Source of the DNA: Henriciella aquimarina
GTDB taxonomy: Bacteria > Pseudomonadota > Alphaproteobacteria > Caulobacterales > Hyphomonadaceae
Assembly: GCF_002088975.1 (NCBI RefSeq)
Contig: NZ_NCST01000106.1
Coordinates: 1-64,000, forward strand
Length of the DNA: 64,000 bases
Reading direction: 5' to 3'
Made by a program: the position numbers and the translations under genes. Shown here piece after piece: positions 16,824-52,696 of the stretch. The number at the start of each line of letters is the position of its first letter. Within the stretch, counting starts at the first letter, position 1. The notes under the pieces are model-generated. The model saw only the letters and a program-made list of their open reading frames with translations, searched no databases and was not told where the DNA came from.

Positions 16824-16838
16824 TATAACTAGGTTATA
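16824..16838. promoter_or_regulatory. TATAAC-N3-GTTATA operator, site 1 (perfect)
   Basis: TATAACTAGGTTATA, a perfect 6-bp inverted repeat with 3-bp spacer, lies 38 nt upstream of the SCP-x-type thiolase start. It is the best-formed copy of the motif repeated through the island. Confidence 0.8.
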
Positions 16839-16893
16839 GAGTAATGACAGCCATCTTGTCCAGCGCCACACATGGGAAAACCAGAGAAAAATC

Positions 16894-18120
16894 TCACGCG
16901 AAATGCAGCCTGCGGTACTTTCCGCCGAAATAGAGCAACGGGTCGCGTCTTGGCTCGAATTTCGCCCGCAACACTTCTCCGACAATGATGACATGATCCC
17001 CACCATCGGCAATCTCGTGCTGGCGGCATTCGAAATTCGCCAGAGCCCCCGCAAGCAACGGGACGTCATGGTCCCCCCTCTGCCAGGGCGTGCTGGCAAA
17101 ACGGTCCTGGCCAGGTTTTGCGAAGGTGTTTGAAATTCCCTGCTGGCCGATATGCAGGACATTAACGCCAAAATGTTCAGACGCGGTCAAAGTATCCAGC
17201 GAACCAGCCGTCTTGGCAATGCAGACCAACAGAAGTGGGGGGTCCAGAGAAACAGATGTGAATGAATTCGCCGTCAGGCCGATAGGCTCCTGTTTCCCGT
17301 TCATTCCGGTCACAACCGTGACCCCTGTTGCAAAACATCCCAGCGCGTCGCGCAGTGTCCGGGCGTCAGAACCGGACCTGTATTCCGGCGTAAACCGGGG
17401 TACGCGCCGCTCCAGAAAATCGAGCAGCGTGGCGTTGAACAGATCGGCCCGTTCCTCCGTGACGAGGTGACGGGACTCCTTGATCTCGGCAAACTCGGCA
17501 TTCCTGAAATTCTCAATGAAACGTGCTGCCACTTCATGCCCGGTAAGCTCAGACAGGGCACCGCGGACAAAAAGGACCGGCATCTTGATATTGGATGCAC
17601 TTTTCGAGATCCGGTCGAGGGTGGACTGAACGTCAAACCCGTCGAGAAAACGTACATCCCATGGCAGATTGCCAGGGTCTGTCTCGGCACGCTTCTTCAG
17701 CGCGTCGGAAACTTTGCGGGCTTTCTGCGCATCGATCTCTGGCGGCGCGTCCACCAGAACGAGGCCTGTGGCAAGATGCTCGCCATCTTCCGCCAGTGCG
17801 ACACTCGCGATCCAGCCTCCGAGCGAAGCCGCAACAATAACGGGACGCGATCCAAGTTCACTCAGTATCGCCTTCAGATCCCCCACATAAGCGTCGAGGT
17901 CATATCGTCCATCTTCGGGCCAATCACTTTCGCCATGCCCGCGCAGGTCGACACTGATGACATAGCGCCCTGCCTGGACGAGTGACTCTACAGCAGGCTT
18001 CCACATCTCGCGTGTCTGTCCGCCGCCATGCAGCAACAACACCGCTGGGTCTTCCGGCCAGCCCTGCACCTCGGCCTGAAGTTTCGCGCCGGCAAATCCT
18101 GTATATTCCTGAATCGGCAT
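16894..18120 (-). CDS. Alpha/beta hydrolase fused to flavin reductase
   Basis: Start at ATG 18120 (GGGAGGCGTC ahead) gives 408 aa in one uninterrupted frame. Residues 1-240 are an alpha/beta hydrolase: LLLHGGGQTREMW oxyanion region, nucleophile Ser99 in VAASLGGW, VLVDAPP and His218 in KESRHLV. Residues about 253-408 are a flavin reductase-like FMN domain with LGCFATGVTVVTG, GLTANSFTSVSLDPPL and HVIIVGEV. Flavin reductases of this type normally supply FMNH2/FADH2 to a two-component monooxygenase, but no such oxygenase is seen in the window. The gene follows a GntR regulator by 26 bp and is probably co-transcribed with it. Confidence 0.88.
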   Translation of the reverse strand: MPIQEYTGFAGAKLQAEVQGWPEDPAVLLLHGGGQTREMWKPAVESLVQAGRYVISVDLRGHGESDWPEDGRYDLDAYVGDLKAILSELGSRPVIVAASLGGWIASVALAEDGEHLATGLVLVDAPPEIDAQKARKVSDALKKRAETDPGNLPWDVRFLDGFDVQSTLDRISKSASNIKMPVLFVRGALSELTGHEVAARFIENFRNAEFAEIKESRHLVTEERADLFNATLLDFLERRVPRFTPEYRSGSDARTLRDALGCFATGVTVVTGMNGKQEPIGLTANSFTSVSLDPPLLLVCIAKTAGSLDTLTASEHFGVNVLHIGQQGISNTFAKPGQDRFASTPWQRGDHDVPLLAGALANFECRQHEIADGGDHVIIVGEVLRAKFEPRRDPLLYFGGKYRRLHFA

Positions 18121-18146
18121 GACGCCTCCCTGTTGTTTCCAATGCC

Positions 18147-18875
18147 TCAACGGGCACTGTCTCTTTGAAGCCATTCCGCAATCATGCGGGCCCGGCGCTG
18201 GATCATTAGCCGTGCGATATCGGGGTCACGGGCCAACACGGCATCGCAGACCGAGCGCTGTAATTCACGCGCACGCCCACGATCTTCGGCCGTCTGGAAC
18301 AACCGGATATTCTGCTCCTTGCGGCCGAATGTGTAGCCAATCTCGATAAAGAGCTCGAACGCCGGGTTGCCACTCATGGTGGCAAGCAAGCGCGCGAGTT
18401 CGGTTTCACTATGGATAAGGGTCTCGGGGGTTTCGTCACACCCCGCGCCTGCCTCCACGCCCACCCTGAAAGCAGTTAGGCGTTCCCATAAGCTACTGTC
18501 AGAACAGCCACAGGCCGCCACAACCGCCTCCTCGGCGATAGGCTGGGTTACGGCCTGAATATTTTCGATGGTTGCCCCATTCAGCCGAAGATATCGGGCC
18601 GGCGCACGGATAACATCAATCGCGTCAGGACGGGTCGCAAAAAAGCCGCCTCCCTGTCCCTTACGGACGTTTATCATACGATCAGCTGAAACCAGCTTTG
18701 CCGCCTGGCGGAGCGTAGGGCGCGAGATATCGAACGCCGCCAGAAGATCCTGCTCCGACCCCAGAAATTCGCCGTCCTCGGCCTTCATGGACAAGTCGGT
18801 CAGCTGGCGGGCTGTCCGCTCTACCAGCGACACGCGCTGACCATGCACCTCAATCTCGGGGTCGTCATAAGGCAT
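18147..18875 (-). CDS. GntR/FadR-family regulator (FCD type)
   Basis: This 242-aa regulator starts at ATG 18875, with GGAG six bases ahead; a GTG at 18887 is less likely. The N-terminal winged helix is seen in LLAAFDISRPTLRQAAKLVS followed by the wing GQGGGFFATRP. The all-helical C-terminal half fits an FCD effector domain that binds organic acids or acyl-CoA. It is divergent from the amidohydrolase, with a copy of the TATAAC-type motif in the shared promoter region. It is therefore one of two candidates for the island-wide repressor. Confidence 0.88.
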   Translation of the reverse strand: MPYDDPEIEVHGQRVSLVERTARQLTDLSMKAEDGEFLGSEQDLLAAFDISRPTLRQAAKLVSADRMINVRKGQGGGFFATRPDAIDVIRAPARYLRLNGATIENIQAVTQPIAEEAVVAACGCSDSSLWERLTAFRVGVEAGAGCDETPETLIHSETELARLLATMSGNPAFELFIEIGYTFGRKEQNIRLFQTAEDRGRARELQRSVCDAVLARDPDIARLMIQRRARMIAEWLQRDSAR

Positions 18876-18941
18876 AAGAAACTCCACAACCTAATAGATA
18901 CCTTTTATCGCATTTTTTGCGATTTTCAATCTTGATAATTA

Positions 18942-18956
18942 TATTACATAGTTATA
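18942..18956. promoter_or_regulatory. TATAAC-N3-GTTATA operator, site 2
   Basis: TATTACATAGTTATA keeps both half-sites with one mismatch. It lies in AT-rich DNA between the GntR gene and the divergent amidohydrolase. Placement suggests autoregulation of the GntR gene. Confidence 0.6.
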
Positions 18957-19011
18957 TTAGTTACCTATTAAAGCGAGCCGGATGTCCGGTCACAAGCAAA
19001 CGGGGAGCCAA

Positions 19012-20118: not shown

Positions 20119-20209
20119 TCCAAGTTTTCTGACGTTTCCTGTCAGAGAAGGTCCTCGTTCTGTAAGTCATGCTTCTTCTTACCTCCGGGAGCGGGGACTC
20201 AACTTCAAA

Positions 20210-20245
20210 GGGCCTGGTTTCATGTAAACCAGGCCCTCTTTTTTT
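20210..20245 (+). terminator. Rho-independent terminator after the amidohydrolase
   Basis: GGGCCTGGTTT and AAACCAGGCCC form a perfect 11-bp stem with a 5-nt loop, followed by TCTTTTTTT. It is positioned to end the plus-strand amidohydrolase transcript before the convergent MFS gene. Confidence 0.92.
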
Positions 20246-20268
20246 GTTCAAACATGGGGAAAGTTCGT

Positions 20269-22789: not shown

Positions 22790-22815
22790 GATGACCTCCC
22801 TGTTTTCATGGGCAC

Positions 22816-22846
22816 AAAAGGCGGCACAATTCATGTGCCGCCTTTA
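22816..22846 (-). terminator. Terminator after the TonB receptor
   Basis: GGCGGCACA and TGTGCCGCC form a perfect 9-bp stem with loop ATTCA. On the minus strand it is followed by TTTTG, just past the receptor stop. The plus side also has a T-rich flank, so it may act in both directions. Confidence 0.85.
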
Positions 22847-22870
22847 TTTAACCATCCGATTTCAAGGCAT

Positions 22871-25216: not shown

Positions 25217-25261
25217 TTTTCCTCCCAGAGGCCAAATCATCCGCTCAGCCCTCTTCACTTG

Positions 25262-25276
25262 TATAACTAGGTGTAC
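25262..25276. promoter_or_regulatory. TATAAC-type operator, site 3
   Basis: TATAACTAGGTGTAC lies 45 nt upstream of the TonB receptor start. The left half-site and core are perfect; the right half is degenerate. Confidence 0.7.
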
Positions 25277-25332
25277 TGCGCAAAACAAGGCGCTACGTCA
25301 ACACGAAACGTTAATTCTCCGGAAGATTGTGC

Positions 25333-26331: not shown

Positions 26332-26354
26332 ACGCTTTTCTCCGCCAGCATCTC

Positions 26355-27137: not shown

Positions 27138-27169
27138 TCGAGAAACCCTCTTCACTCAAATACCAGTTA

Positions 27170-27184
27170 TATAACTAGGTGCTA
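27170..27184. promoter_or_regulatory. TATAAC-type operator, site 4
   Basis: TATAACTAGGTGCTA lies 32 nt upstream of the SDR start and overlaps the stop codon of the preceding acyl-CoA synthetase gene. Confidence 0.7.
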
Positions 27185-28687
27185 CTTTTGCTCGTCTGAG
27201 GCAAACATTTTTTTGAGCGGCAGCATCGCAGGCTTCATGCTAGGTGTACGCGGAATATCGACGACAAACTGATAATGGACGGGCACCTGATAAGGGACGA
27301 GCCGTTCACGCAAAAACGATTTGAGCTCGTCCAGAGCGGGCTCCTGGCCTCCATCTTTAAGGATGATTGCCGCAGCGGGGACTTCCCCCAACCGCTCATC
27401 GGGCACACCGATAACTGCCGCCTCTCGAATGGATGGATGGGTCTCAAGCGTGCGCACGATGTCATCGGGATGCACCTTGAACCCGCCACGCAGAATGGCG
27501 TTGTCGGCACGGCCTTTGACATAAAGGAAATTGTCCTCGTCGATGACAGCGCGATCCGTAGTCCTCAACCAGCCGTCCTTCAGTCCCAGCTGGGAGCCTG
27601 TCAGCTCCAGAACGCCCTCCTGTCCCGGAAGCAGGATATCGCCAGTCTCCTGATCAATGATCCGCGCCTGGACGCTCTCGTGGATGCGGCCAGCAGCGCC
27701 TTTCTTCTCTTCCCAGTGAGCCTTGAAATCCGGCAAGGACCAGGCTGCAATCGCTCCAGCGAATTCCGTCGCCCCATAATTGGCGAGCACTGGCACGCCA
27801 TACTTGTCCAGAAAGGTATCGACCACATCGGGTGAAAGCGGCGCAGTTCCGCTAATGATTGCCGACAGGCTTGAAAAATGCTCACGCGGCAGGTCAGCCT
27901 CGATCAGCATGCGCAGGGCTGCTGGTACAGCCGGTGCCACCTTTGGCCGGTGTCTCGTAACGGCCCCAACCCAACGATCAACAGAAAACTTCTCGACAAG
28001 ACAGATACGCCGGCCCACCATGAGCGCGCCGATCACGCCATAAATCCCGCCAATGTGCGTTACCGGATTGATGATCAAAGTCGTAGACGACCTGAGCTTC
28101 ACCGTAGCATTCTGATCGCGGCTTTTGTCATGACTGGCAATGGCCGCGAAGCTTGCGTCAAACGCGGCGCGCGAAAGCGGAACGCGTTTCGGCTTGCCCG
28201 TTGTGCCACTGGTCAGCATCTCGATCGCTGTTTCACCAGCCGTGGCATTGTCCCTGCGGCTGCCGGTCCGGCGCAACCTCACGGTTTCAAGCAGTGGGCC
28301 AATTTCGATGACACTGGCATCCAGCGCCTCAAGCGCAGCGGCTACGCCGGGCCGGTCAAGGTCCGCACTTTCACCGATCACGACCGGCACACCGAGTGCC
28401 TCGATGTCCGGCCCAAGCGTCTCATCGGGATAGACCGGGTTCAGGGTCACGAGGCACCGGTCAGAAGCCAGAACGGCCAAAATGGAAGCAATGTGACCGG
28501 GCCCATTATGCAGCAACGCACCAATCCTGGCACCTTGTCCCTGCCCCAGTTCCTCAAGCAGGCTCTCAATGTCTGCCACACGTGCTGCCAGCTCGCCCCA
28601 GTCTATCCATTGCTCATCAAAGTCGATGACCGGCGCATTGCTATCAAGTGACATGACCTCTCTGAGCGTCTGTGTGATCACCGCCAT
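27182..28687 (-). CDS. AMP-forming acyl-CoA synthetase (paralogue A)
   Basis: This 501-aa ANL enzyme has GGAGGCGGGAAT before the ATG. The P-loop is MLTSGTTGKPKRVPLS, the central motif VLANYGATEFAG, the hinge LRTTDRAVIDEDNFLYVKGR and the C-terminal IPRTPSMKPAM, which keeps the lysine but replaces the preceding Gly with Met. It activates a carboxylic acid to its CoA thioester. The protein is clearly related along its length to the synthetase at 47778-49301, including the unusual PRTPSMKPA ending, so the two are duplicates with probably different substrates. It is monocistronic behind its own operator. Confidence 0.92.
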   Translation of the reverse strand: MAVITQTLREVMSLDSNAPVIDFDEQWIDWGELAARVADIESLLEELGQGQGARIGALLHNGPGHIASILAVLASDRCLVTLNPVYPDETLGPDIEALGVPVVIGESADLDRPGVAAALEALDASVIEIGPLLETVRLRRTGSRRDNATAGETAIEMLTSGTTGKPKRVPLSRAAFDASFAAIASHDKSRDQNATVKLRSSTTLIINPVTHIGGIYGVIGALMVGRRICLVEKFSVDRWVGAVTRHRPKVAPAVPAALRMLIEADLPREHFSSLSAIISGTAPLSPDVVDTFLDKYGVPVLANYGATEFAGAIAAWSLPDFKAHWEEKKGAAGRIHESVQARIIDQETGDILLPGQEGVLELTGSQLGLKDGWLRTTDRAVIDEDNFLYVKGRADNAILRGGFKVHPDDIVRTLETHPSIREAAVIGVPDERLGEVPAAAIILKDGGQEPALDELKSFLRERLVPYQVPVHYQFVVDIPRTPSMKPAMLPLKKMFASDEQK

Positions 28688-28726
28688 ATTCCCGCCTCCT
28701 GCAATCAGCTACCCCACCATAACATA

Positions 28727-28741
28727 TATAACTAGGTTATC
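28727..28741. promoter_or_regulatory. TATAAC-N3-GTTATA operator, site 5
   Basis: TATAACTAGGTTATC matches the palindrome except for the last base and lies 39 nt upstream of the synthetase start. Confidence 0.75.
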
Positions 28742-28783
28742 TATATCTACTGAGAACAGAGAGGAAAGTCTTCGTGATTGGCT

Positions 28784-29347
28784 TTATTCCGCATCGATCG
28801 CTGACTGGAACGCCCGGACAAGCCAGGCACGTGTGTTTTCGTCCAGATCCCCCTGCATCGCCTCCAGGGGAAGCAAGCTGCGATAGGTAAAGAAGCCGGA
28901 CGCGATTACCATGATGCGGGCAGCCTGCACTTCAGCCCCAACACCACCAAGCCACTCGGCCAACGGGAGCACGATGCGTTCCCGCAACAATTTCAGAGCC
29001 ACGGCCTGCAAGCGGGCTTCAGCTGTTGCGAAAATCAGCATTGGTAGTGGATTTATGCGTCCCGGCACCGGACGAATAAATGCCGCCACGAGACGCTCTC
29101 CGAACTCTACGCGCGAAGCAGGCATCAATGGTGTGGGGTCGAGTGATGCGGTCAGCGCGGCCTCAAAGAGCTTCTCCTTCGATCCAAAATAGCGGCTCAC
29201 CAACGCCGCATTCGCTCCGGCCAGAGATGTGATCTCCTTCAAGGAAGCCTCGGCATATGGATGGCGGGAGAATACGTCCTGCGCCGCCTCGAGTATGGAC
29301 TGGCGCGTGCGCTCCGCATCCCGTTTCCTCACACCTGCCGCGTTCAT
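28784..29347 (-). CDS. TetR-family regulator of the P450 operon
   Basis: This 187-aa TetR-type regulator has its HTH in residues about 12-58 (TRQSILEAAQDVFSRH, then ITSLAGANAALVSRYFGSKE). The C-terminal ligand domain is helical and not assignable to a ligand class. It is divergent from the P450 gene. A perfect 10-bp inverted repeat lies between them, over the expected P450 promoter, so repression of the P450-ALDH-SDR operon and of itself is likely. This unit has no copy of the island operator and appears separately controlled. Confidence 0.9.
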   Translation of the reverse strand: MNAAGVRKRDAERTRQSILEAAQDVFSRHPYAEASLKEITSLAGANAALVSRYFGSKEKLFEAALTASLDPTPLMPASRVEFGERLVAAFIRPVPGRINPLPMLIFATAEARLQAVALKLLRERIVLPLAEWLGGVGAEVQAARIMVIASGFFTYRSLLPLEAMQGDLDENTRAWLVRAFQSAIDAE

Positions 29348-29376
29348 TCTTCACCTGGTTAGATAAGTGTTGACTC

Positions 29377-29400: not shown

Positions 29401-29427
29401 TGGCATATAAACACACGGGAGGACAAG

Positions 29428-30636
29428 GTGACAGACAAGACAGACGCCAAGAATGCGCCCGCTCACGTGTCTCAGGACCGTATCGTGTCCTTTGACTTCT
29501 ATAACGACCCACGGCTCCAGGATGACCTTCATGACGGGCTGATGAAACTTCGGGATGAAGCGCCCGGTGTATTCTGGACCCCGGCCAATGGCGGCCACTG
29601 GGTGGTGCTGGATCCTGATGCAATTTCTACCGTTCTGAGATCGCCGAAAGACTTTTCCAGCCGCCAGCTTCAGATTCCGCCCAGGCCGGACGCACCACGC
29701 ATGATTCCGGAATCGCTCGATCCGCCTGAGCACCTGCTATATCGTCGGCTGATGATGAGCTGGTTCGAGCCAGGCCGCATCAAGCACCTCCAGAGCCGCG
29801 TGGACTACTGGACGAAGCATTTCATCTCAAAAGTAAAGGACAGGGGCGAGTGCGAGTTCGTCGAGGATATCGCCTCGCGCATTCCCGTAACTGTCTTCAT
29901 GGAATTTGTGGGTTTTCCGCTTGAACGTCACGAAGACTTTCGATCCCTGATCGACGGCATGTTCCGCTCGACGTCGCCGGAAGATTCCCAGCACTACGCG
30001 ATGAAGATCATGGGTGAGCTACAGGCCCTTATCACCGCGCGCATGGAAAAGCGTGAAGACGACCTGCTCTCCCGCCTCATTGACGCTGACTTCGGAGACA
30101 GGAAGCTGAGTTTCGAAGAGCTCATGTCTATCGGCTTCCTGCTCTTCCTGGCAGGGCTCGACACGGTCACCAACGCGATGAGCTTCGGGATCCGTCACAT
30201 GGCACGACATCCTGGCTTCCAGGCAGAGCTGCGCGCCAATCCCGACAGGTCCGCTGAAGCAGCAGAGGAACTACTACGCCGCTATACGTTCCCGAACCTG
30301 CCGAGGCAGGTTGCCGGGGACATTGAACTCGACGGCGCCCGAATGAAGGCCGGAGACATGGTCCTCTGCGTGATTGCCATGGCTGGGCTCGACGACGCGC
30401 TCAATCCCGATGCGACTGAAGTGAAGCTGGACCGAGAGAAACGCAATCATTTTGCTTTCGGCTATGGTGGACACACCTGCCTCGGCCGTCATCTCGCAAA
30501 GATGGAGCTTGAGACCTTCTACCGGGAATGGCTCGCCGCCATTCCCGACTTCCGAATTGATGAAACAAAACCCAGAGGCCAGGTGCGCGGCGGATCCGTC
30601 ATGGGCCTGTCATCCCTTCATCTGGCCTGGTCCTGA
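29428..30636 (+). CDS. Cytochrome P450 monooxygenase
   Basis: A GTG at 29428 with GGGAGGACAAG ahead is preferred over an ATG at 29386, which lies inside the operator. The 402-aa soluble bacterial P450 has the I-helix FLAGLDTVTNA, the K-helix Glu281-x2-Arg284 and the heme loop FAFGYGGHTCLGRHLA with Cys351 as heme ligand. It would hydroxylate a hydrophobic substrate using electrons from a ferredoxin system; no ferredoxin or ferredoxin reductase gene is seen in the window. It is followed by aldehyde dehydrogenase and SDR genes, suggesting hydroxylation, then alcohol and aldehyde oxidation to a carboxylate. Confidence 0.94.
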   Translation: MTDKTDAKNAPAHVSQDRIVSFDFYNDPRLQDDLHDGLMKLRDEAPGVFWTPANGGHWVVLDPDAISTVLRSPKDFSSRQLQIPPRPDAPRMIPESLDPPEHLLYRRLMMSWFEPGRIKHLQSRVDYWTKHFISKVKDRGECEFVEDIASRIPVTVFMEFVGFPLERHEDFRSLIDGMFRSTSPEDSQHYAMKIMGELQALITARMEKREDDLLSRLIDADFGDRKLSFEELMSIGFLLFLAGLDTVTNAMSFGIRHMARHPGFQAELRANPDRSAEAAEELLRRYTFPNLPRQVAGDIELDGARMKAGDMVLCVIAMAGLDDALNPDATEVKLDREKRNHFAFGYGGHTCLGRHLAKMELETFYREWLAAIPDFRIDETKPRGQVRGGSVMGLSSLHLAWS

Positions 30637-30663
30637 TCGCCACTCCGAAAAGAAAGACACGAC

Positions 30664-32127: not shown

Positions 32128-32139
32128 GGAGACATACAG

Positions 32140-32954: not shown

Positions 32955-33158
32955 ATGCAACTCCGCGAGCTGCCACAAACCTATATCGACCTCGTCATCG
33001 GCGGGGTTTCACTGGGTCCAGGCAGACTGTTCAGCGATGCCATCATCTATTGTGCGCTGACGGCGACACCCTCCGTGGTCGGCACGAAGGTCGCCATTGA
33101 AAGGATAGATCCTTCCCGCCAATCCAGACGACACCGGACCTGCCCATTAACCTCATGA
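32955..33158 (+). CDS. Short hypothetical ORF, possibly a gene remnant
   Basis: A 67-aa frame follows the SDR gene by 29 bp and has a good ribosome binding site (GGAGAGAAGGTCACC). I do not recognise the product. The first 50 residues look protein-like (YIDLVIGGVSLGPG, DAIIYCALTA). The last part is basic and looks out of frame; a one-base shift near 33104 would give KDRSFPPIQTTPDLP and a stop at 33173. It may be a frameshifted or truncated relic. Confidence 0.3.
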   Translation: MQLRELPQTYIDLVIGGVSLGPGRLFSDAIIYCALTATPSVVGTKVAIERIDPSRQSRRHRTCPLTS

Positions 33159-33247
33159 GCAAGGCGCAGACGGGCTGATCGAGAGCTTCACGGTTTCCAC
33201 GCGGTCCTTGAAACAGACAGCGTAGTAGGTTTGCGCGTTTATGCGCT

Positions 33248-33766
33248 TCAGGCGCGACGGCGCTTGTCCGACCTGTCAATGCCGAGGCATGCCCCGCAGA
33301 CATAAGCAGCATAATCGCTGGCCAGATATGAGGCCAGCTCACCAAGCGCCCGGAGTTTCTCTCGCGGTCCCGTTGCGACATAGGTCGAAGTAATTGCATT
33401 CGCCCGAAGTTTCGGCCCGCACAGGCTTGCCAGAGATGTCTCGGCACCCGCGCCAACCGGCTCAAGCAGCAGGATATTCCCTTTGAGGTTCGTTTTATCG
33501 AGATACTTCGCAAACGCTTCACCATAGGCCTTGGCCGCAACATCATTCCCACCGGACGCATGCACCAGAATGCTCACCGGGTCCCCTGCGGCCTTATCTG
33601 CGATTTCAATGGCAGCCAACGCAGCCTCGGTGTCGTCGGTCACAGGCCCACGTGCAATCGTTGCGCCAGCTGCAGCAAGCTCATGCGCTACAGCTTCGAC
33701 GCCATCCCCCGCGCCAACGACAACGCAGACCGGATCGTCCAGCCAGCTTGGAACCGTCCGGCTCAT
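33248..33766 (-). CDS. Degenerate SDR-like protein (second of a tandem pair)
   Basis: This 172-aa protein starts at ATG 33766 in a 4-bp overlap with the preceding SDR-like gene. It keeps an SDR-like beginning (VCVVVGAGDGVEAVAHEL) and the typical C-terminal ELASYLASDYAAYVCGACLGID, but has no Ser-Tyr-x3-Lys active site and is about 80 residues shorter than a normal SDR. The unbroken frame and coupling argue for a functional, non-catalytic subunit rather than a pseudogene. It is last in the operon with an acyl-CoA dehydrogenase. Confidence 0.7.
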   Translation of the reverse strand: MSRTVPSWLDDPVCVVVGAGDGVEAVAHELAAAGATIARGPVTDDTEAALAAIEIADKAAGDPVSILVHASGGNDVAAKAYGEAFAKYLDKTNLKGNILLLEPVGAGAETSLASLCGPKLRANAITSTYVATGPREKLRALGELASYLASDYAAYVCGACLGIDRSDKRRRA

Positions 33767-34386
33767 GATGCGCCTCCATCCAGTTTGAGGATTTGCCCAT
33801 CTATTTCCCGCGCGAAAGGCGAGCATAGAAAGGCGACTGCCCAGCCAAGTTCGAATGTCCCGCCCGCACGGCCGACGGGGCCATTTTTACCGCTATCGAG
33901 ACTGGCTTCGACAACATTCATCCGGCTACCACCCGGCCAGGCCGCTAAAAAAGCATCTGCTTTGCCGGCTCCCGTTACAGCAACAGCAGACCGGGCTTTA
34001 CCCTTTGCAGGTTTTTCCGCTGCGAAAGCCTCCATGAATGGAGTGGCTATGTCGGTTTCCACATTGACGATGATGCAGTGGTCGATCGTCCCGAGAGTTT
34101 CGGTCACCTCATCGAAGACATTGGTAACATCACTCCTGTATGTCGCTACCAGAGAGGCCTGCCCATGACCTTCGGCGATACCGGAAACCCGCCTCGCCGC
34201 AGCCATGTCTTTCCCGATAGACACAATGGATGCGCCAACTGATGTGAAAGCATCGGCGATTGCCTGAGCAGACTCGCTACCCTCCGAAAGGATCATCACC
34301 GTATCTTCCGAGTAGATCGCATCCGGAAGAAAATTCCGCTCCGGCCCGAATGCCGGCGGGTCAAGTTTGAGGACGTGTTCACTCAT
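33763..34386 (-). CDS. Degenerate SDR-like protein (first of a tandem pair)
   Basis: This 208-aa protein starts at ATG 34386 (GAAGAAGAT ahead), 32 bp after the acyl-CoA dehydrogenase. The C-terminus FELGWAVAFLCSPFAREIDGQ plus LKLDGG is plainly SDR. The N-terminal glycine motif is replaced by ILSEGSESAQAIA and no YxxxK active site is present. Residues 1-30 form an unusual leader (LDPPAFGPERNF). Paired inactive SDR subunits are known in BbsCD of anaerobic toluene degradation, where BbsC is non-catalytic. Here, however, both partners look inactive. Confidence 0.7.
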   Translation of the reverse strand: MSEHVLKLDPPAFGPERNFLPDAIYSEDTVMILSEGSESAQAIADAFTSVGASIVSIGKDMAAARRVSGIAEGHGQASLVATYRSDVTNVFDEVTETLGTIDHCIIVNVETDIATPFMEAFAAEKPAKGKARSAVAVTGAGKADAFLAAWPGGSRMNVVEASLDSGKNGPVGRAGGTFELGWAVAFLCSPFAREIDGQILKLDGGAS

Positions 34387-34418
34387 ATCTTCTTCACCAG
34401 GTCTGGTCTGAATTCCAG

Positions 34419-35582
34419 CTAAAGCCCACGTGCAATCAGCACCTTCATGATCTCGTTTGAGCCGCCATAGATCTTCTGAATCCGCGAATTCCGGAACTGT
34501 TTCGCAATGGGGTACTCGTTCACATAACCATAGCCGCCGTGCAGCTGCAGGCATTCGTCAACGATTTCCCACTCCGTATCGGTCACCCACATCTTCGCGA
34601 TGGCAGAGGTATCGTTGTCCAATGTTCCGGCAATTGCTTTCTCGATGCAGTCATTGATAAAGGTTCGCGCTACCACGGCCTTCGCCTTGCACTCTGCAAG
34701 CTTGAACTGGGTATTCTGGAAGTCGAACACGGGCTGACCGAACGCTTTGCGCTCTCGCGTATAATCCAGCGTCCAGTTGATGGCCTTTTCCATGGCAATG
34801 ACCGAGTTAACCGCGATGATCAGACGTTCGCGGGGCAGTTCCGCCATGAGCTGGAAGAAGCCCTTGCCTTCGTCACCGCCGAGCAGATTGTCAGCCGGCA
34901 CAAATACATCATCAAAGAATAGCTCGGACGTGTCCTGTGCTTCATGGCCAATCTTGTCGAGTTTCTTACCGCGCCTGAAACCTTCGAGGCCTTCGGTTTC
35001 AACGACCAGTAGCGAAACGCCGCGGGCACCTTTGCTGGGATCGGTTTTGCACACGACGACGATGAAATCAGCAATCTGTCCATTCGAGATGAATGTCTTC
35101 GATCCATTCAGCCTGTAACCATTGCCATCACGGATGGCCGTCGTTCGGATTGCCTGCAAGTCAGAGCCGGCCCCCGGTTCACTCATGGCGATGGCACAGA
35201 CGCGCTCGCCGGACACGAGCTTTGGCAGCCAGCGCTCTTTCTGTTCCTGCGTCCCGTGCAACTGGATATAGGGTGTCACAATGACATTGTGCAGCGTGAT
35301 CGCGAAGCCTTCGAGGCCCAGACGCTGACACGTCTCACACAAGACGAGATCATGCCGGAAGTCGCCCCCGGGACCCCCGTACTCTTCTGGAACGCTGACG
35401 CCCAGAAATCCGGCCTCTCCAACCTCTTTCCAGAATTCACGTTCGACCTGCCCGTCTTCGACCCACTTCTCAATGCGTTTTGGCGGGGCTGCCCGGGAGA
35501 AGAACCTTTCCGCCGCGTCGGAAAACATGCGGATTTCCTCATCCTGCATGAATGGGGCTTCCGGTAGTCTGAGATCGCTCAT
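34419..35582 (-). CDS. Acyl-CoA dehydrogenase, LCAD/IVD-like active site
   Basis: This 387-aa ACAD has SEPGAGSDLQAIRT, LNGSKTFISNG, CLQLHGGYGYVNEYP and the end KIYGGSNEIMKVLIARGL. In that end motif Gly replaces the catalytic Glu of medium-chain enzymes. The helix-G Glu is present in LPRERLIIA, as in long-chain and isovaleryl-CoA dehydrogenases, so the enzyme should be active. It is first in the operon with the two degenerate SDR-like genes. An operator copy lies about 60 nt upstream. It is probably a desaturase of branched or long acyl-CoA intermediates. Confidence 0.92.
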   Translation of the reverse strand: MSDLRLPEAPFMQDEEIRMFSDAAERFFSRAAPPKRIEKWVEDGQVEREFWKEVGEAGFLGVSVPEEYGGPGGDFRHDLVLCETCQRLGLEGFAITLHNVIVTPYIQLHGTQEQKERWLPKLVSGERVCAIAMSEPGAGSDLQAIRTTAIRDGNGYRLNGSKTFISNGQIADFIVVVCKTDPSKGARGVSLLVVETEGLEGFRRGKKLDKIGHEAQDTSELFFDDVFVPADNLLGGDEGKGFFQLMAELPRERLIIAVNSVIAMEKAINWTLDYTRERKAFGQPVFDFQNTQFKLAECKAKAVVARTFINDCIEKAIAGTLDNDTSAIAKMWVTDTEWEIVDECLQLHGGYGYVNEYPIAKQFRNSRIQKIYGGSNEIMKVLIARGL

Positions 35583-35642: not shown

Positions 35643-35657
35643 AGCACACCTAGTTTA
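35643..35657. promoter_or_regulatory. TATAAC-type operator, site 6 (reverse orientation)
   Basis: Read on the minus strand this site is TAAACTAGGTGTGCT, keeping the AACTAGGT core. It lies about 60 nt upstream of the acyl-CoA dehydrogenase start and is the weakest copy of the set. Confidence 0.5.
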
Positions 35658-35696
35658 ATAACTCAATGAGGCAATCGGGGTTTTTGCCAGCCCGTT

Positions 35697-37303: not shown

Positions 37304-38119
37304 TCAGTACGCGTTGATGGCATCGACAATCCGCTCACCTTCACCGGCTCGGGCCCAGGAAGCATGCGCATTCTTGAGGTGCAGGCGCCAATGGGCGACG
37401 GCCGCTTCTTCTTCCTTGTCCCCGATAAGCCTGATGAGCTTACGATAGGACTTTAGGGCACCATCGAGCCGTTTCTTGCGGGCTTCCTTGTCAATCGGAT
37501 CGCGCTGCATGACATCGGCCTTATGATTGGCCATCAAATCCTGAAGCAGTTGGGTAATGAGGGTCAGGGTCTTGTTGCCCGTTAGCTTGACGAGCAGGCC
37601 ATGAAACTCCGCGACGCCGCGCGTGAAGGTATTGATCCGCTCTTCATCGATAAGGGTCACGAGATACTCGCAATGCTCATTGAGCGCTTCGACAACCTTC
37701 TTGTTATTCCGCATTCTGCACAATGTGCGGATCACATAAGGCTCGATAGCCATTTGCGAGGCATAAAGGTCGGCAATTGTTGTGCCCTGCGACTGGAGCA
37801 CATACCCGGCATAACGCGCTGCGACTTCTACGCGTGGCAGATGGACCTGCGCGCCCGAGCGTGAGCCGCGCGTGACACTGATCAGATTTTCCGCTTCCAG
37901 AATCCTGTAGGCTTCGCGCAGTGTCGGACGGGACACGCCCAGCGTTTCCATCAGCTGCCCCTCAGGCGGCAAGGTGTCGCCCTCCGATATCTCGCCGCGA
38001 ACGATCTGTGCCCGAATCTGGTCTGCAACCACTTCGGAAGTCTTGGGTGTACGTATCCGGTTGGCCGGGCGTGTCGGAGATTTCGCGGTGCTTTTCACCG
38101 CAGTCGCTTTTCTTGCCAT
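37304..38119 (-). CDS. GntR/FadR-family regulator (FCD type)
   Basis: This 271-aa regulator starts at ATG 38119 (GAAGGAAG ahead). A basic N-terminal arm of about 25 residues (KATAVKSTAKSPTRP) precedes a FadR-type winged helix with LPPEGQLMETLGVSRPTLRE and ILEAENLISVTRGSRSG. The C-terminal FCD domain is helical. It is divergent from the synthetase at 38265, with an operator copy in the shared region. Because its recognition helix is the most FadR-like in the window, I consider it the stronger candidate for the island-wide regulator. Confidence 0.9.
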   Translation of the reverse strand: MARKATAVKSTAKSPTRPANRIRTPKTSEVVADQIRAQIVRGEISEGDTLPPEGQLMETLGVSRPTLREAYRILEAENLISVTRGSRSGAQVHLPRVEVAARYAGYVLQSQGTTIADLYASQMAIEPYVIRTLCRMRNNKKVVEALNEHCEYLVTLIDEERINTFTRGVAEFHGLLVKLTGNKTLTLITQLLQDLMANHKADVMQRDPIDKEARKKRLDGALKSYRKLIRLIGDKEEEAAVAHWRLHLKNAHASWARAGEGERIVDAINAY

Positions 38120-38188
38120 ATATTTGCTTCCTTCAAACGCGGGCCGCCTCATTGCTGAAGCGGCAACACACGACTATACCACCTATTA

Positions 38189-38203
38189 TATAACTTGGTA
38201 TAA
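38189..38203. promoter_or_regulatory. TATAAC-type operator, site 7
   Basis: TATAACTTGGTATAA lies between the divergent GntR regulator and acyl-CoA synthetase genes, 62-76 nt upstream of the latter. The site suits control of both genes. Confidence 0.65.
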
Positions 38204-38264: not shown

Positions 38265-39818
38265 ATGCCGCACCCTCGAGACCATGCCACTCGCCAGCCA
38301 GCCCAGGCCGCCATCATCATGGCCGAAAGCGGCACTATTTTGACCTATGGCGAGTTGGAAACAAAGGCAAATCAGGGCGCTCACCTCCTTCGCGAACTTG
38401 GCCTCAAAGCAGGCGACACGCTTGCCATCTGGCTGAAGAACTGTCCCGACTATTTCACCATCTACTGGGCGGCCCAGCGGACAGGCCTTTATATCGCCCC
38501 CATATCAACGGCGTTCACAGCCGAGGAAGCTGCCTATATCCTTTCCGACAGCGGAGCACGTGTCCTGGTTACAAGTAATACCGTGCGGCATGCGGAGGAG
38601 CTGCTGCAAACCTCACAGCCTGCGTCGGTTGAGCATGCCTTCACGATTGGTCGCGCTTTCTCAGGCCTCCCTGACTGGAAGGACGCTATTGCCGGTCATC
38701 CAGCAACACCCGTGACAGACGAGACGGCCGGGTTTCACATGGTGTATTCTTCAGGCACGACGGGCAAACCGAAAGGTATCCGCCAGCCCTTGAGCGGCGG
38801 CCCGGCAACCGCCCCTCACCCACTCGCCGAGCGAGCGCGTGACAATTACGGAATCTGCCCCCAAAGCGTCTACCTCTCCCCAGCCCCCCTTTATCACACG
38901 GCGCCTCTGGCCTTCTCCACATCGTGTCACCGCCTGGGTGCGACAGTTGTCATCATGGAGAAGTTCACCCCCGAAGGCGCCCTTGAAGCGATTGAAAACC
39001 ATCACGTCAATATCACGCAGATGGTCCCCACCATGTTTGTCCGCATGTTGCGAATGCCCGATGCCGAACGTCTGACGTTTGACGTCTCCAGCCTCCAGAC
39101 CGTCATCCATGCGGCCGCTCCCTGCCCGGTTGATATCAAGCATCAGATGATCGACTGGCTAGGACCGATCCTGCTGGAATACTATGGTGGCTCCGAAGGC
39201 AATGGATCGACGTCGATCACCTCCGAAGAGTGGTTGCGCAAACCGGGCTCCGTCGGCAAGGCGAACTGGGGGGTGATTCATGTCTGCGGAGAAGATGACG
39301 AGGAGCTGCCAGCTGGTGAGCCGGGCCTCATCTATTTCGAAGGCGGCTGGGACTTCAAATATCTGAACGACGACCAGAAAACACGCGATGCGCGCCATCC
39401 AATACATGCTGGATGGTCAACGCTCGGGGATGTCGGCTATCTGGATGAGGACGGCTATCTCTTCCTGACGGATCGCAAGTCCTTCATGATCATTTCGGGC
39501 GGCGTGAATATCTATCCTCAGGAAATCGAGGACACACTGATTTGTCATCCAGACGTACTCGATGCAGCCGTTATTGGTGTGCCGAACGCAGAAATGGGCG
39601 AAGAGGTCAAAGCCGTCGTACAGCCCGTCAGAAGCGAAAATGCGGATGACGCCTTCGGCGATCAACTCGTCGCCTGGTGTCGCTCGCGCCTGTCACCGGT
39701 AAAGTGTCCGAAGTCTGTCGACTTCGTCAACGCCTTGCCGCGCGGCGATAATGGCAAGCTCTACAAGCGTCAGATCCGCGACCGCTATTGGCCGGCCGAG
39801 CAGAAGGGCGTAAACTAG
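38265..39818 (+). CDS. AMP-forming acyl-CoA synthetase
   Basis: This 517-aa ANL enzyme has AGGAAAGGTCAACGC before the ATG. Motifs are MVYSSGTTGKPKGIRQP, LLEYYGGSEGNG, GWSTLGDVGYLDEDGYLFLTD and the catalytic lysine in LPRGDNGKLYKRQIRDRYW. The STLGD variant and the GGSEGNG motif are typical of the FadD3/caiC-like groups used for large or ring-bearing acids in actinobacterial steroid pathways, but this is a weak hint. It is divergent from the GntR gene and overlaps the convergent flavoprotein gene by 4 bp at its 3' end. Confidence 0.92.
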   Translation: MPHPRDHATRQPAQAAIIMAESGTILTYGELETKANQGAHLLRELGLKAGDTLAIWLKNCPDYFTIYWAAQRTGLYIAPISTAFTAEEAAYILSDSGARVLVTSNTVRHAEELLQTSQPASVEHAFTIGRAFSGLPDWKDAIAGHPATPVTDETAGFHMVYSSGTTGKPKGIRQPLSGGPATAPHPLAERARDNYGICPQSVYLSPAPLYHTAPLAFSTSCHRLGATVVIMEKFTPEGALEAIENHHVNITQMVPTMFVRMLRMPDAERLTFDVSSLQTVIHAAAPCPVDIKHQMIDWLGPILLEYYGGSEGNGSTSITSEEWLRKPGSVGKANWGVIHVCGEDDEELPAGEPGLIYFEGGWDFKYLNDDQKTRDARHPIHAGWSTLGDVGYLDEDGYLFLTDRKSFMIISGGVNIYPQEIEDTLICHPDVLDAAVIGVPNAEMGEEVKAVVQPVRSENADDAFGDQLVAWCRSRLSPVKCPKSVDFVNALPRGDNGKLYKRQIRDRYWPAEQKGVN

Positions 39819-40816: not shown

Positions 40817-40846
40817 CTACGGCTCCCCTACTCCTGTCTATACTTA

Positions 40847-40861
40847 TCATACTAGGTTATA
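40847..40861. promoter_or_regulatory. TATAAC-type operator, site 8
   Basis: TCATACTAGGTTATA lies midway between the divergent flavoprotein genes, about 30 nt from each start codon. The right half-site GTTATA is perfect. Confidence 0.65.
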
Positions 40862-40890
40862 TATATTGATCTGGAAAGAGGGTTTTCATC

Positions 40891-41844: not shown

Positions 41845-41851
41845 GTATCTG

Positions 41852-42598: not shown

Positions 42599-42630
42599 AG
42601 ATGCGTCTCCTGATAAACGCTCAAGGGCAA

Positions 42631-44894: not shown

Positions 44895-44896
44895 GA

Positions 44897-47753: not shown

Positions 47754-47777
47754 TTGTCGGTCTCCCTTTGGTAACAG

Positions 47778-49301: not shown

Positions 49302-49346
49302 GAGTAACCCTCCAGGACCGCACACTTCCTGCGCGAAATCCTCTTA

Positions 49347-49361
49347 TATAACTAAGTGCAC
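49347..49361. promoter_or_regulatory. TATAAC-type operator, site 9
   Basis: TATAACTAAGTGCAC lies 45 nt upstream of the first gene of the seven-gene operon. The left half-site is perfect. Confidence 0.65.
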
Positions 49362-49396
49362 TTTGTGAAAAGTATTATCTCGCCTTTGATGAGAAT

Positions 49397-50602
49397 TTAT
49401 TTGAGCTCATCGAAGGGCACGCCCTTGTCGGCACGCATCTCACCCGGCATGCCGAGCACACGTTCAGAGATCTGATTACGAAGCACCTCGTCAGCGCCCC
49501 CGGCAATCCTCAGGGCTGTCGACCAGATATAGTCGTGCCAGAGTTGCCGCGTGGGGATGACGTCTTCATGGGGCGCAAGCGCGTCCATGCCGCGTATTTC
49601 CATGGCGAGCCCAGACGTCTGCTGAAGCCGGCTCGCATAAGTGAGCTTCATCATCGCTGCCAGCGCCCCGGGGTTTTCCCCGCGCGACACCATGGTACGC
49701 AGCCGGGCCTGAAAATATTTCGCGGCGCGTTCCTCAGCATAGGCCGTCGCAAGTGACAGGCGCACCGCCGGATCATCGAGCGCAGTGGCCCCCTCCATCG
49801 GCGTGTCGGCCGCATATTGCATGAGCGCCTCAATCCGGCCTTCCTCGCCCTGATTGAGCCTTTCGCCCATCAGAACGGTCATGCAGCAGGCCCACCCTTC
49901 ACCCTCGGCACCGATGCGGTCACCTTCGGGTATCCGAACATCGCTCAGGAATGTTTCGTTGAAATCCGAGGCTCCCGAGATCTGCCGGATCGGGCGGATC
50001 TCTATGCCAGGTGACTTCATGTCGACCACGAAGAAGGTCAGCCCCTTGTGCTTGACCGCTTTCGGGTCGGTCCGCACGACGAGAATGCCCCAGTCGGAAT
50101 GGTGTGCCCAGGAAGACCAGACTTTCTGGCCATTGACGACATAAGCGTCACCCTCCTTGACGGCTCTCGTGCGCACAGCCGCCAGGTCGGAGCCGGCCGC
50201 CGGCTCCGAGAACAGCTGGCACCAGGTCAGCTCGCCCTTGAGCGTTGGTTCGACGAACTTCTTTATCTGCTCGTCGGTACCGTGTTTACCAATAACCGGC
50301 AACGCCATGCCGAGACCGATCCCGATATATGGCCCCTTTGGCAGATTGTATTTTTTCTCTTCCTCGTCGAAGACGACAGCCTCCACGATCGTCCCACCGC
50401 GGCCGCCAAGGGACTTCGACAGGAGAATGCCGGCATAGCCACCATCATAGAGCTCACGCTGCCAGGCCTTGCCCCGCGCAACTTCGTCAGCGTCATCCAG
50501 GGTCGCACCGGGGGGCAGCTCATGGCCGGGCGCGTGTTTTGCCAGCCACGCTTTGACCTCGGCGCGAAATTCAGCCTCTTCGGGGGTGTCATTGAAGTCC
50601 AT
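49397..50602 (-). CDS. Acyl-CoA dehydrogenase, catalytic (alpha-like) partner, second pair
   Basis: The ATG at 50602 lies directly after the stop of the upstream subunit gene, giving 401 aa. Motifs are LFSEPAAGSDLAAVRT, VNGQKVWSSWAHH, a helix-G Glu in VLMGERLNQG and the end IAGGADEVLRNQISERVLGM. It pairs with the 50604 product as a probable alpha/beta heteromeric acyl-CoA dehydrogenase. The two-gene operon has its own operator copy upstream. It acts in the same class of reaction as the 43698/42631 pair but presumably on a different intermediate. Confidence 0.92.
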   Translation of the reverse strand: MDFNDTPEEAEFRAEVKAWLAKHAPGHELPPGATLDDADEVARGKAWQRELYDGGYAGILLSKSLGGRGGTIVEAVVFDEEEKKYNLPKGPYIGIGLGMALPVIGKHGTDEQIKKFVEPTLKGELTWCQLFSEPAAGSDLAAVRTRAVKEGDAYVVNGQKVWSSWAHHSDWGILVVRTDPKAVKHKGLTFFVVDMKSPGIEIRPIRQISGASDFNETFLSDVRIPEGDRIGAEGEGWACCMTVLMGERLNQGEEGRIEALMQYAADTPMEGATALDDPAVRLSLATAYAEERAAKYFQARLRTMVSRGENPGALAAMMKLTYASRLQQTSGLAMEIRGMDALAPHEDVIPTRQLWHDYIWSTALRIAGGADEVLRNQISERVLGMPGEMRADKGVPFDELK

Positions 50603-50603
50603 C

Positions 50604-51722
50604 TCAGGCGGTCTCCATCTGCTTTCCGGGTACATGGGTTACCAGCCTGTCCGCCCAGTACTGGCGCGGCCCAAGCGTGATGGCGAGCGTACGTTCCCGC
50701 CGGTAGTGAAAGTGACAATCGGCCTCGAACGTGTACCCGATGCCGCCATGAACCTGGAGGTTCTCTCGCGCGGCCTGCTCATAGGCGTTGATCGCACTCA
50801 GGCGGACTGCAGCTGCGGCAACCGCCAGCTCGGCTGGCGCATTATCGGAAGCCCAGCCTGCGAAGAAAGCATTGGACCGGGCAAACTCAGTGGCCACCAG
50901 AATATCGGCCAGTTTGTGCTTGATGGCCTGATAGCTTGCCAGTGAGCGTCCGAATATCTGGCGGTCCATCGCATAATCCCGCGCCATGTAGACACAGGCT
51001 TCCGCACCACCGACGGCCTCGAAAGATGCCTGGACAGACATCCTGTCTGTCAGCGTCCTGAGCCCGTCTTCATCGCCAACACTTGCCTCAAGAAGCGAAG
51101 CCGGCGTGTCCTTGAAAGTGAGCGCATAATGCGCCCGCAACTGGTCAAATCCATCAAGCTTGCGTCGCTCAACGGTCTCACCGTCGAGCTCCACAAGCGC
51201 AAGCGCCGGCTTGCCTTCATATGCGCAGTAAACAACCGCCAGGCTTGCAATACCTGCATCTCCAACAGGCGTTTTCACCCCCGACAGTTTTCCGGCCCTG
51301 CAACTGACACTGGAAGACTTCGGCCACCAGCCCTGTCGTCCTTCAGCATGTGCGAGTGTTCCCACAACCTCTCCGCAGGCAAGCCTGGGAAGCCAGGCTT
51401 CCTTCTGCTCATCGGAACCGAATCTCTGAATCGCATCTGCGGCACAGACAATCGAAGCATAGAAGGGAACAGCCGCGACTGCCCGGCCGACCTCCTCGCT
51501 GATCACGCCAAGGTCGAGATCACCCAGTCCGAGCCCGCCATACTCTTCAGGGATGCGGGCTCCGGGAAACCCCAGCTCAGACAGGGACGCCCATAGCGGT
51601 TCATCCCATTCGGCTCCCGCATCAATCAGTTCGCGCAGCCGGTCCGGCGAGGATTGCTTCCCCAGCAATCCTCGAGCCTGTTCAGCCAGCATCTTCTGTT
51701 CCTCAGCAAGATCGAAATTCAT
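50604..51722 (-). CDS. Acyl-CoA dehydrogenase, non-catalytic (beta-like) partner, second pair
   Basis: This 372-aa ACAD-fold protein begins FDLAEEQKMLAEQARGLL and ends with VHGGIGYTFEADCHFHYRRER, typical of the smaller partner of heteromeric ACADs. The helix-G position (MSVQASFEAVGG) has no glutamate aligned with the catalytic base, and there is no YEGT motif. Its gene abuts that of the catalytic partner. It is divergent from the crotonase at 51850, with one operator copy between them. Confidence 0.88.
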   Translation of the reverse strand: MNFDLAEEQKMLAEQARGLLGKQSSPDRLRELIDAGAEWDEPLWASLSELGFPGARIPEEYGGLGLGDLDLGVISEEVGRAVAAVPFYASIVCAADAIQRFGSDEQKEAWLPRLACGEVVGTLAHAEGRQGWWPKSSSVSCRAGKLSGVKTPVGDAGIASLAVVYCAYEGKPALALVELDGETVERRKLDGFDQLRAHYALTFKDTPASLLEASVGDEDGLRTLTDRMSVQASFEAVGGAEACVYMARDYAMDRQIFGRSLASYQAIKHKLADILVATEFARSNAFFAGWASDNAPAELAVAAAAVRLSAINAYEQAARENLQVHGGIGYTFEADCHFHYRRERTLAITLGPRQYWADRLVTHVPGKQMETA

Positions 51723-51766
51723 GCCTGCCAGTCCTCCCGTTCGGATTGCACACTATTATCAACTTA

Positions 51767-51781
51767 TATAACTAGGTCAAT
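51767..51781. promoter_or_regulatory. TATAAC-type operator, site 10
   Basis: TATAACTAGGTCAAT lies between the divergent acyl-CoA dehydrogenase pair (44 nt from its start) and the crotonase gene (68 nt from its start). Left half and core are perfect. Confidence 0.7.
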
Positions 51782-51849
51782 TAACACTTCTCGGTTGCAG
51801 TGATGCATGTCAGTGTAGGAGAAGACAAGGGATACAGAGGGAGCCACCC

Positions 51850-52644
51850 ATGAAATTCGAAACCATCCTCTTCGACGTGAAGGATCGTGTGGCAACGATC
51901 ACGATCAACCGGCCCGAAGCCATGAATAGCTTTACGCGCCAGATGATGGACGACTTCACAGCCGCCTGGCGCCACATTGCCGAAACAGAAGACATCCATT
52001 GTGCCATTCTTCGCGCTGCGCCGGGAAAAGCTTTTTCAACCGGCGTAGACGTCAAGGCCGCCTCGCAGCCGGGCGGTTCGGTCATGCACGACGATATCTG
52101 GGTCGCCGAAGACCCCGGCGAGCAGCTGGGCCCCAAGTCAAACCGCTGCTGGAAGCCCATCATTTGCGCCGTTCATGGCATGGCCGCGGGGGGCGCCTTC
52201 TACTGGATCAATGAATCCGACATTGTCATCTGCTCCGAAGACGCAACCTTCTTTGATCCGCATGTCACCTATGGCATGACGGCTGCCCTGGAACCGATCG
52301 GCGCCACCTATCGAATGCCCCTCGGGGATGTCATGCGCATGACCCTGCTCGGCAATGACGAACGCATCTCTGCGCACACTGCACTTCGTCTTGGCCTGGT
52401 CACCGAGGTCACGGAAAATGACAAGCTCTGGTCACGGGCCGATGAGCTGGCGGCGATCATTGCGGCGAAGCCGCCCGCCGCGACAGCGGGCTCAGTCAAA
52501 GCGATCTGGGAGTCGCTCGACATGCCGAGATCTGTCGCACTCAGAACCGCCCTCAAATACTGCCAGCTCGGCAACCCCGTCGGACAGACTCAGGTCGACA
52601 GAGCCGCCATTATGAGCAAAGCGAAATCCTACACGGTGCGATGA
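51850..52644 (+). CDS. Enoyl-CoA hydratase family protein
   Basis: This 264-aa crotonase follows GAGGGAGCCACCC. Oxyanion-hole segments AAPGKAFSTGVDVKA and HGMAAGGAFYWINESDIVI are present, and the active-site region FDPHVTYGMTAALEPIG contains Glu in ALEP near the expected catalytic position. It is followed 83 bp later by a thiolase gene with its own operator. A role in hydration of an enoyl-CoA before thiolysis is the simplest reading. Confidence 0.9.
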   Translation: MKFETILFDVKDRVATITINRPEAMNSFTRQMMDDFTAAWRHIAETEDIHCAILRAAPGKAFSTGVDVKAASQPGGSVMHDDIWVAEDPGEQLGPKSNRCWKPIICAVHGMAAGGAFYWINESDIVICSEDATFFDPHVTYGMTAALEPIGATYRMPLGDVMRMTLLGNDERISAHTALRLGLVTEVTENDKLWSRADELAAIIAAKPPAATAGSVKAIWESLDMPRSVALRTALKYCQLGNPVGQTQVDRAAIMSKAKSYTVR

Positions 52645-52681
52645 GCTGAACCGTTCCAGGCTTGCCTACCCTTACAACTTG

Positions 52682-52696
52682 TGTAACTAGGTGATA
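52682..52696. promoter_or_regulatory. TATAAC-type operator, site 11
   Basis: TGTAACTAGGTGATA lies 31 nt upstream of the thiolase ATG. One mismatch occurs in the left half; the core is intact. Confidence 0.65.

Follow-up and report, generated by a model that had tools for sequence, protein, structure and literature searches.

Does a short palindrome that recurs in front of the genes of a catabolic island in Henriciella aquimarina tie this island into one regulon, and which protein reads it? We looked at both questions in a window of 64,000 nucleotides (contig NZ_NCST01000106.1), that is, the whole stretch of DNA analysed, in which the island covers positions 11571 to 53966 (~42 kb). A sequence-only reading of this window had listed 11 copies of a 15-bp element, TATAAC-N3-GTTATA, and had proposed as its binders two FadR-type GntR proteins encoded among the target genes. 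In our analysis, 12 sites were located, and we give a probability of about 0.75 to the reading that they are operators of one local regulon, bound by one of these two proteins, GntR2 (37304 to 38152, minus strand), which would repress the island until a pathway ligand releases it. A single switch probably controls the whole island. The kind of regulation is a known one; the regulon is new, and its operator is non-canonical.

Operators in the window and in the genome

The 11 sites listed before were all found in the window at the positions given for them. Allowing up to three mismatches, the symmetric pattern TATAACNNNGTTATA was met at 11 places in the window against 3.93 expected, and none of 100 shuffles reached 11. 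Taken literally, this pattern recovers only 8 of the 11 noted sites, missing 25262, 35643, and 49347, and adds places at 30272, 48093, and 51754; it is therefore a poor description of the site. The conserved part is ACTTATATAACTAGGT followed by an AT-rich right arm. Exact copies of TATAACTAGGT number five in the genome of 4,335,829 bases, all of them in the window, and exact copies of TAACTAGGT number seven, with six in the window. When the 11 sites were left out of a 24-column matrix one at a time, the omitted site still came 13th or higher among ~128,000 window positions.

For the scan of the whole genome, we used a held-out model made from sequence only and trained on 33 sites, all taken from orthologous promoters in three other genomes and none from this genome. 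As the training sites were first located with a window-derived matrix, the test is independent in sequence and not in site choice. At an expect value (E) of 10 or less, 12 matches were obtained, and all 12 were in the island: the 11 noted sites and a new one. With 108 candidates scored in the initial pass, a very weak site outside the island may have been missed; at this sensitivity, the motif is confined to the island, in line with the earlier proposal, which had called for such a scan. No match was obtained at the IclR module or in the flanks either, as had been noted. The P450 operon had been described as lacking a copy, and this was wrong, since the twelfth site (29353 to 29368, minus strand; E 0.84) stands in the 38-base gap between a gene for a TetR-family protein (minus strand) and the P450/aldehyde dehydrogenase/SDR (short-chain dehydrogenase/reductase) operon (plus strand). 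Because this site adjoins the P450 operon and is kept in all four Hyphomonadaceae islands presented below, we count the operon in the regulon.

Transcription units were delimited by eye, from gene direction and spacing, and an operator was found at each of them from 11.6 to 54.0 kb, which supports the proposal of a single regulon. Operator 1 (16819 to 16834, plus strand; E 0.0044) lies at the SCP-x thiolase/ChsH2-like/AMP-ligase operon, which runs from 16785 down to 11571 on the minus strand, and operator 2 (18937 to 18961, matched on the minus strand; E 0.80) lies between the divergent GntR1 operon (minus) and an amidohydrolase gene (plus). Operators 3 (25257 to 25272; E 0.023), 4 (27165 to 27180; E 0.0024), and 5 (28722 to 28737; E 0.0013), all on the plus strand, are placed at three minus-strand units: a TonB receptor/EcKL-like/MFS operon, an SDR-DUF2889 operon, and an acyl-CoA ligase gene (27182 to 28687). 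Operator 6 (35648 to 35663, minus strand; E 0.21) belongs to an acyl-CoA dehydrogenase (ACAD) gene at 34419 to 35582 on the minus strand. The remaining five are on the plus strand. Operator 7 (38184 to 38199; E 1.65) is shared by the divergent GntR2 gene (minus) and an acyl-CoA ligase gene starting at 38265 (plus), so that an operator at the regulator's own promoter, as proposed before, is supported. Operator 8 (40842 to 40857; E 0.13) separates a divergent pair of nitronate-monooxygenase-like genes, operator 9 (49342 to 49357; E 0.036) heads an operon running from 49325 down to 41852 (ligase, MaoC, two crotonases, ACAD pair, SDR), operator 10 (51762 to 51777; E 0.0017) separates an ACAD pair (minus) from a crotonase gene (plus), and operator 11 (52677 to 52692; E 0.017) precedes a thiolase gene (52728 to 53966, plus).

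The 16-bp core of the sites lies 5 to 72 bases from the likely start codon, so the former estimate of mostly 30-65 nt roughly holds. For the TonB, SDR1, and 47778 ligase genes, the distance was measured to in-frame ATGs read from the translations, because the starts of the mechanical open reading frames (ORFs) are too far upstream; the TonB ORF as mechanically listed even overlaps its operator. An overlap of the sites with the -10 region, also suggested before, could not be established: a consistent -35 TTG was sought upstream of the sites, and its enrichment was slight and scattered.

Conservation and anatomy of the site

To follow the motif in related bacteria, 105 genomes of the family and 398 of the order were searched for contigs with at least three exact copies of TATAACTAGGT. 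Only four genomes had such a contig, namely the present one, Henriciella mobilis M65 (G009), Hyphomonas oceanitis SCH89 (G042), and the metagenome-assembled genome HGW-Alphaproteobacteria-18 (G056). The same island is syntenic in all four, with most gene products 50-95% identical. Ten of the 12 promoters carry a site in all four islands, that of thiolase2 does so in three and that of SDR-DUF2889 (operator 4) in two, making 45 sites in total; no thiolase2 gene was detected in the stretch of G056, and the site at AMP-ligase 2 of G009 is weak (14.2 bits). The logo of these 45 sites omits two further sites, one of G042 and one of G056, both included in the 132-site set used below. Present at most operons, rare elsewhere in the genome, and conserved at orthologous promoters, the motif has the features expected of the shared operator of a single-regulator catabolic regulon.

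Beyond the Hyphomonadaceae, a scan with GntR2 returned homologues in Novosphingobium, Sphingobium, Pontixanthobacter/Erythrobacter-type genomes, and Rhodococcus, among others. Sphingomonad islands, whose sites were read from 16 + 11 contig fragments rather than whole genomes, have strong sites at the genes for SCP-x, thiolase2, the nitronate monooxygenase, TonB, GntR1/amidohydrolase, MaoC, the ACAD pair, and the crotonase. In 31 fragments including the four islands (1,250,665 bases), the matrix gave 248 matches of at least 16 bits, 187 of them non-redundant, against one match each for the mirrored and the complemented control matrix. None of the 187 fell inside genes matched by window proteins. 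The two Rhodococcus genomes have weaker sites, one of which, slightly downstream of the SCP-x/ChsH2 genes, is the perfect 16-bp palindrome ACTTAGTTAACTAAGT. Their SCP-x thiolase (5337-6503 in locus L136, 5389-6555 in L137) is 75-76% identical to that of the window, and such identity between Rhodococcus and this alphaproteobacterium suggests that the pathway core was horizontally transferred. Two GntR2-like paralogues share one locus or contig, close to operator-like sites, in both Rhodococcus loci and in G484:C78 (part of which is L270). The loci of four more distant organisms gave no match at 10 bits.

The anatomy of the site was read from 130-132 unique sites. Its 16-bp core is sharp-edged, and core positions 10, 11, 15, and 16 are always or almost always A, C, G, and T, respectively. 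The right arm, about nATMYATST, is looser and mirrors ASTTR on the left. The ACTAGGT core is the best-conserved part, and flanks beyond ~25 bp are hardly conserved between sites. The best dyad is centred on the A of TAG, with a self-complementarity of r 0.81-0.90 for half-widths 6 to 13 (132 unique sites). A second, 16-bp dyad, centred between core bases 8 and 9 (4.5 bases to the left of this A), reaches r 0.56-0.65 and is the perfect one in Rhodococcus. An early preference for this 16-bp dyad over TATAAC-N3-GTTATA was dropped in view of its lower r, and both dyads were kept; a third candidate, AGTTATATAACT, gave about 0.3 and was rejected. The 15-bp palindrome described before has the best-scoring dyad centre but understates the site, which spans ~25 bp around its 16-bp core and includes a second dyad that overlaps the first. 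In many groups of the FadR subfamily, weaker extra half-sites lie 7-12 nt from the centre (PMC4494728).

Candidate regulators

GntR2 has the architecture of the FadR subfamily, its Pfam matches being well above the cut-offs for both GntR (66.5 bits, cut-off 27) and FCD (53.2 bits, cut-off 24.3). Its AlphaFold model (predicted local distance difference test, pLDDT, 78.7; predicted template modelling score, pTM, 0.59) has NanR as top fold match, followed by CGL2915 and FadR, with template modelling (TM) scores of only 0.35-0.57 among the matches listed. Only one of the aligned homologues departs from the recognition helix SRP(T/S)LREA. At the position of the helix-2 Arg of FadR, which we assigned ourselves by way of the FadR sequence, these homologues have Gly, Ala, Thr, or Val. 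In the subfamily, this Arg prefers G (PMC4494728), and an operator without the canonical boxes is consistent with its replacement. As for the FCD metal site (Asp/Asn and His), H184 is kept in the alignment and the Asp position is Val; Y236 and H258 occupy the remaining positions, as read from sequence and not from structure against PMC7674646.

We then compared GntR2 and the sites in 397 genomes, the family of G412. To lessen the bias of a genome set picked through GntR2, motif and protein were searched separately. G412 was itself found through GntR2, and the motif search used stricter filters, with loss of weak matches. A strong site (best E of 0.05 or less) was detected in 19 genomes, and all 19 encode a GntR2-like protein of at least 200 bits. 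Such a protein is present in 25 genomes in total; among the other six, four have weak matches and two have none at E of 1 or less. The 372 genomes without GntR2 have no strong site, and seven of them have one weak match each. This co-distribution is a strong association rather than proof, considering that the cut-offs are post hoc, the genomes related, and the genes linked.

The other regulators of the island behave differently. GntR1 (18147 to 18887, minus strand), a divergent GntR/FCD-like protein, falls below both Pfam cut-offs (25.5 vs 27 bits for GntR, 20.5 vs 24.3 for FCD), and of the two proteins called FadR-type before, only GntR2 is above them. Among 21 GntR2-bearing genomes, picked through GntR2, orthologues of GntR1 (>240 bits) were found in 11 and those of the TetR-family protein (28784 to 29347, minus strand; >190 bits) in eight. 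That GntR1, alone or together with GntR2, is the binder appears unlikely. In each of the four Hyphomonadaceae islands a site does stand in the divergent promoter of GntR1 itself, and an orthologue of GntR1 is present in all eight multi-site sphingomonad genomes (G410, G412-G418), but none was found in six Erythrobacteraceae-type genomes that keep one to three site matches each, where the best match to GntR1 is GntR2 itself (47-60 bits). In these genomes the sites precede thiolase2 and the ACAD1-GntR2 pair, and in one locus, that of Pontixanthobacter aquaemixtae (L131), GntR2 is the sole regulator among the 10 of 30 mechanical ORFs that were scanned against Pfam. The TetR-family protein, which the former inventory of regulators had missed together with the site at its start, is a very improbable binder. 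It is encoded mid-island, divergently from the P450 operon, and is present in all four Hyphomonadaceae islands (orthologues 55-70% identical in the three others), its start is 5 bases from a site, and TetR proteins often bind AT-rich dyads. However, no match to it at E of 1e-15 or less was obtained in these six Erythrobacteraceae-type genomes, nor in G413 (10 site matches), G416 (13, at 12 separate places), or G418 (10); where its gene would be expected in G416 and G418, the gap is too short to hold it. Since the sites persist where no orthologue of GntR1 or of the TetR protein was found and track GntR2, the proposal of a GntR-type regulator stands, and of the two GntR proteins GntR2 is the stronger candidate.

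That the binder is encoded elsewhere than in the island is improbable too. Linkage does not prove that a regulator is encoded in cis, and the operator departs from the FadR-subfamily consensus; against this, the genomic matches are all in the island and the distribution over the 397 genomes follows GntR2, the one regulator compared with the sites there. It hardly seems credible that, instead of an operator, the sites represent the -10 region of promoters or copies of a scattered mobile repeat: although the AT-rich TATAAC resembles a -10 box and the sites are near starts, they face either way relative to the gene (108 in the same orientation, 138 in the opposite one), which suits a dimer site, the best-conserved part is the ACTAGGT core, no other match exists in the genome at E of 10 or less, and the poorly conserved flanks speak against a mobile repeat.

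Several observations weigh against GntR2 as the binder of all sites. The GT-N2/3-AC arrangement is not conserved, the main dyad of the 132 unique sites reading AC-TAG-GT; the subfamily consensus is TKGT/ACMA, GT and AC standing 2-3 bases apart, with BioR and NanR as exceptions (PMC4494728). Of the 12 sites, the one at the promoter of GntR2 itself scores lowest. No equivalent of the twelfth site turned up between the TetR and P450 genes of three sphingomonad genomes (G725, G773, G792), the Nevskia and Frankiales loci gave no match at 10 bits, and G110, with a 41% identical GntR2 homologue, has only weak matches nearby. In the set of 397, GntR2-positive G621 and G568 have no match at E of 1 or less, G669, G690, G762, and G768 have weak ones only, and at this threshold 23 of the 30 matching genomes have GntR2. 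The cut-offs of 0.05 and 200 bits were set after viewing the lists, and the co-distribution might reflect linkage, as GntR2 genes travel with pathway genes. Finally, G413, G416, and G418 are metagenome assemblies and possibly incomplete, which weakens the argument from the missing TetR gene.

If GntR2 is the regulator, it would bind the 12 operators, including that of its own promoter, a short distance upstream of the start codons. Its probable binding form is one dimer, or a pair of dimers whose half-sites overlap. Most FCD regulators of this kind repress their targets until a metabolite of the pathway lifts the repression, and together with operators 5-72 bases from likely starts this makes repression of the island genes the likely mode. 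A CoA-thioester or free acid of the pathway would release GntR2, the CoA-thioester being guessed from the island's enzymes. GntR1 and the TetR protein would be targets of GntR2 rather than master regulators, and may fine-tune sub-parts of the island, the TetR protein possibly as a secondary regulator of the P450 operon.

Related regulons, pathway and neighbouring genes

One comparable layout is that of KstR/KstR2 in actinobacteria, where a single repressor governs a large steroid-catabolism island with SCP-x/DUF35-type and heteromeric ACAD genes; the island shares these genes and, as proposed, this organization, and differs in that KstR/KstR2 belong to the TetR family and use other motifs. The FadR regulon of E. 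coli and Vibrio resembles the present one in having an FCD-type GntR protein over dispersed operons of acyl-CoA metabolism, and FadR is among the best fold matches of GntR2. In contrast, the regulon described here is confined to one island, the helix-2 Arg is replaced, and the FadR operator, TKGT/ACMA with mostly 3 nt from GT to AC (PMC4494728), contrasts with ASTTRTATAACTAGGT and a right arm. BioR and NanR are likewise FCD-type GntR proteins that do not use GT-N2/3-AC, and the BioR site, TTATMKATAA, is AT-rich too (PMC4494728), while NanR is the top fold match of the GntR2 model; their motifs, targets, and pathways are others, and NanR acts on direct repeats. FadP, PsrA, and LiuR/LiuQ of Proteobacteria also head acyl-CoA catabolism regulons, defined by comparative genomics, but are of the TetR or MerR families, and the present motif did not appear in the portion of PMC5343134 consulted. 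In the literature searched, which left subscription papers and RegPrecise outside, no description of the motif or of its regulator was recognised.

The pathway is plausibly one for the degradation of polycyclic terpenoids or of steroid side chains. Such substrates are our leading guess because the island P450 is CYP101-like, the SCP-x thiolase comes with a ChsH2-like partner and has as nearest solved relative the lipid-transfer protein 6ok1, presumably Ltp2, a steroid side-chain aldolase, and an ACAD subunit is closest to 6wy9 and 4x28, which we take to be steroid-type dehydrogenases. No steroid ring-cleavage gene was recognised among the Pfam matches of the island. A wider proposal, to which we give even odds, is that GntR2 founds an undescribed clade of the FadR subfamily that lacks the helix-2 Arg, reads a non-canonical composite operator of ~25 bp with two overlapping dyads, and controls terpenoid- or steroid-type beta-oxidation islands, regulator and operator having stayed associated in Hyphomonadaceae, in Sphingomonadales, and, following horizontal transfer, in Rhodococcus. 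The operator would allow genes to be assigned to an uncharacterised degradation pathway across distant bacteria, and the inducer of one protein would report the substrate of this pathway. The 187 candidate operators and the candidate regulator are also material on how a FadR-subfamily protein without the usual helix-2 Arg reads DNA.

Some neighbouring genes were also looked at. Behind the acyl-CoA dehydrogenase gene, at ~33040-34420 on the minus strand, the translations show by eye two short, degenerate SDR-like proteins in tandem, which are possibly non-catalytic subunits; the only Pfam match of a mechanical ORF at this place is to SDR, at the C-terminus. The region 11571-13591 (minus strand) encodes an AMP ligase distantly similar to PaaK, scoring under the NCBIfam cut-off, and a protein of 221 aa that matches neither Pfam nor NCBIfam, both 56-89% identical in the three other Hyphomonadaceae islands. 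Next to the island, at 3959-11510, a MaoC/HpcH/IclR/thiolase/acetyl-CoA-hydrolase-like module has no operator match, and most of it recurs at ~58-64.5 kb on the Hyphomonas oceanitis contig, past the opposite end of the island.

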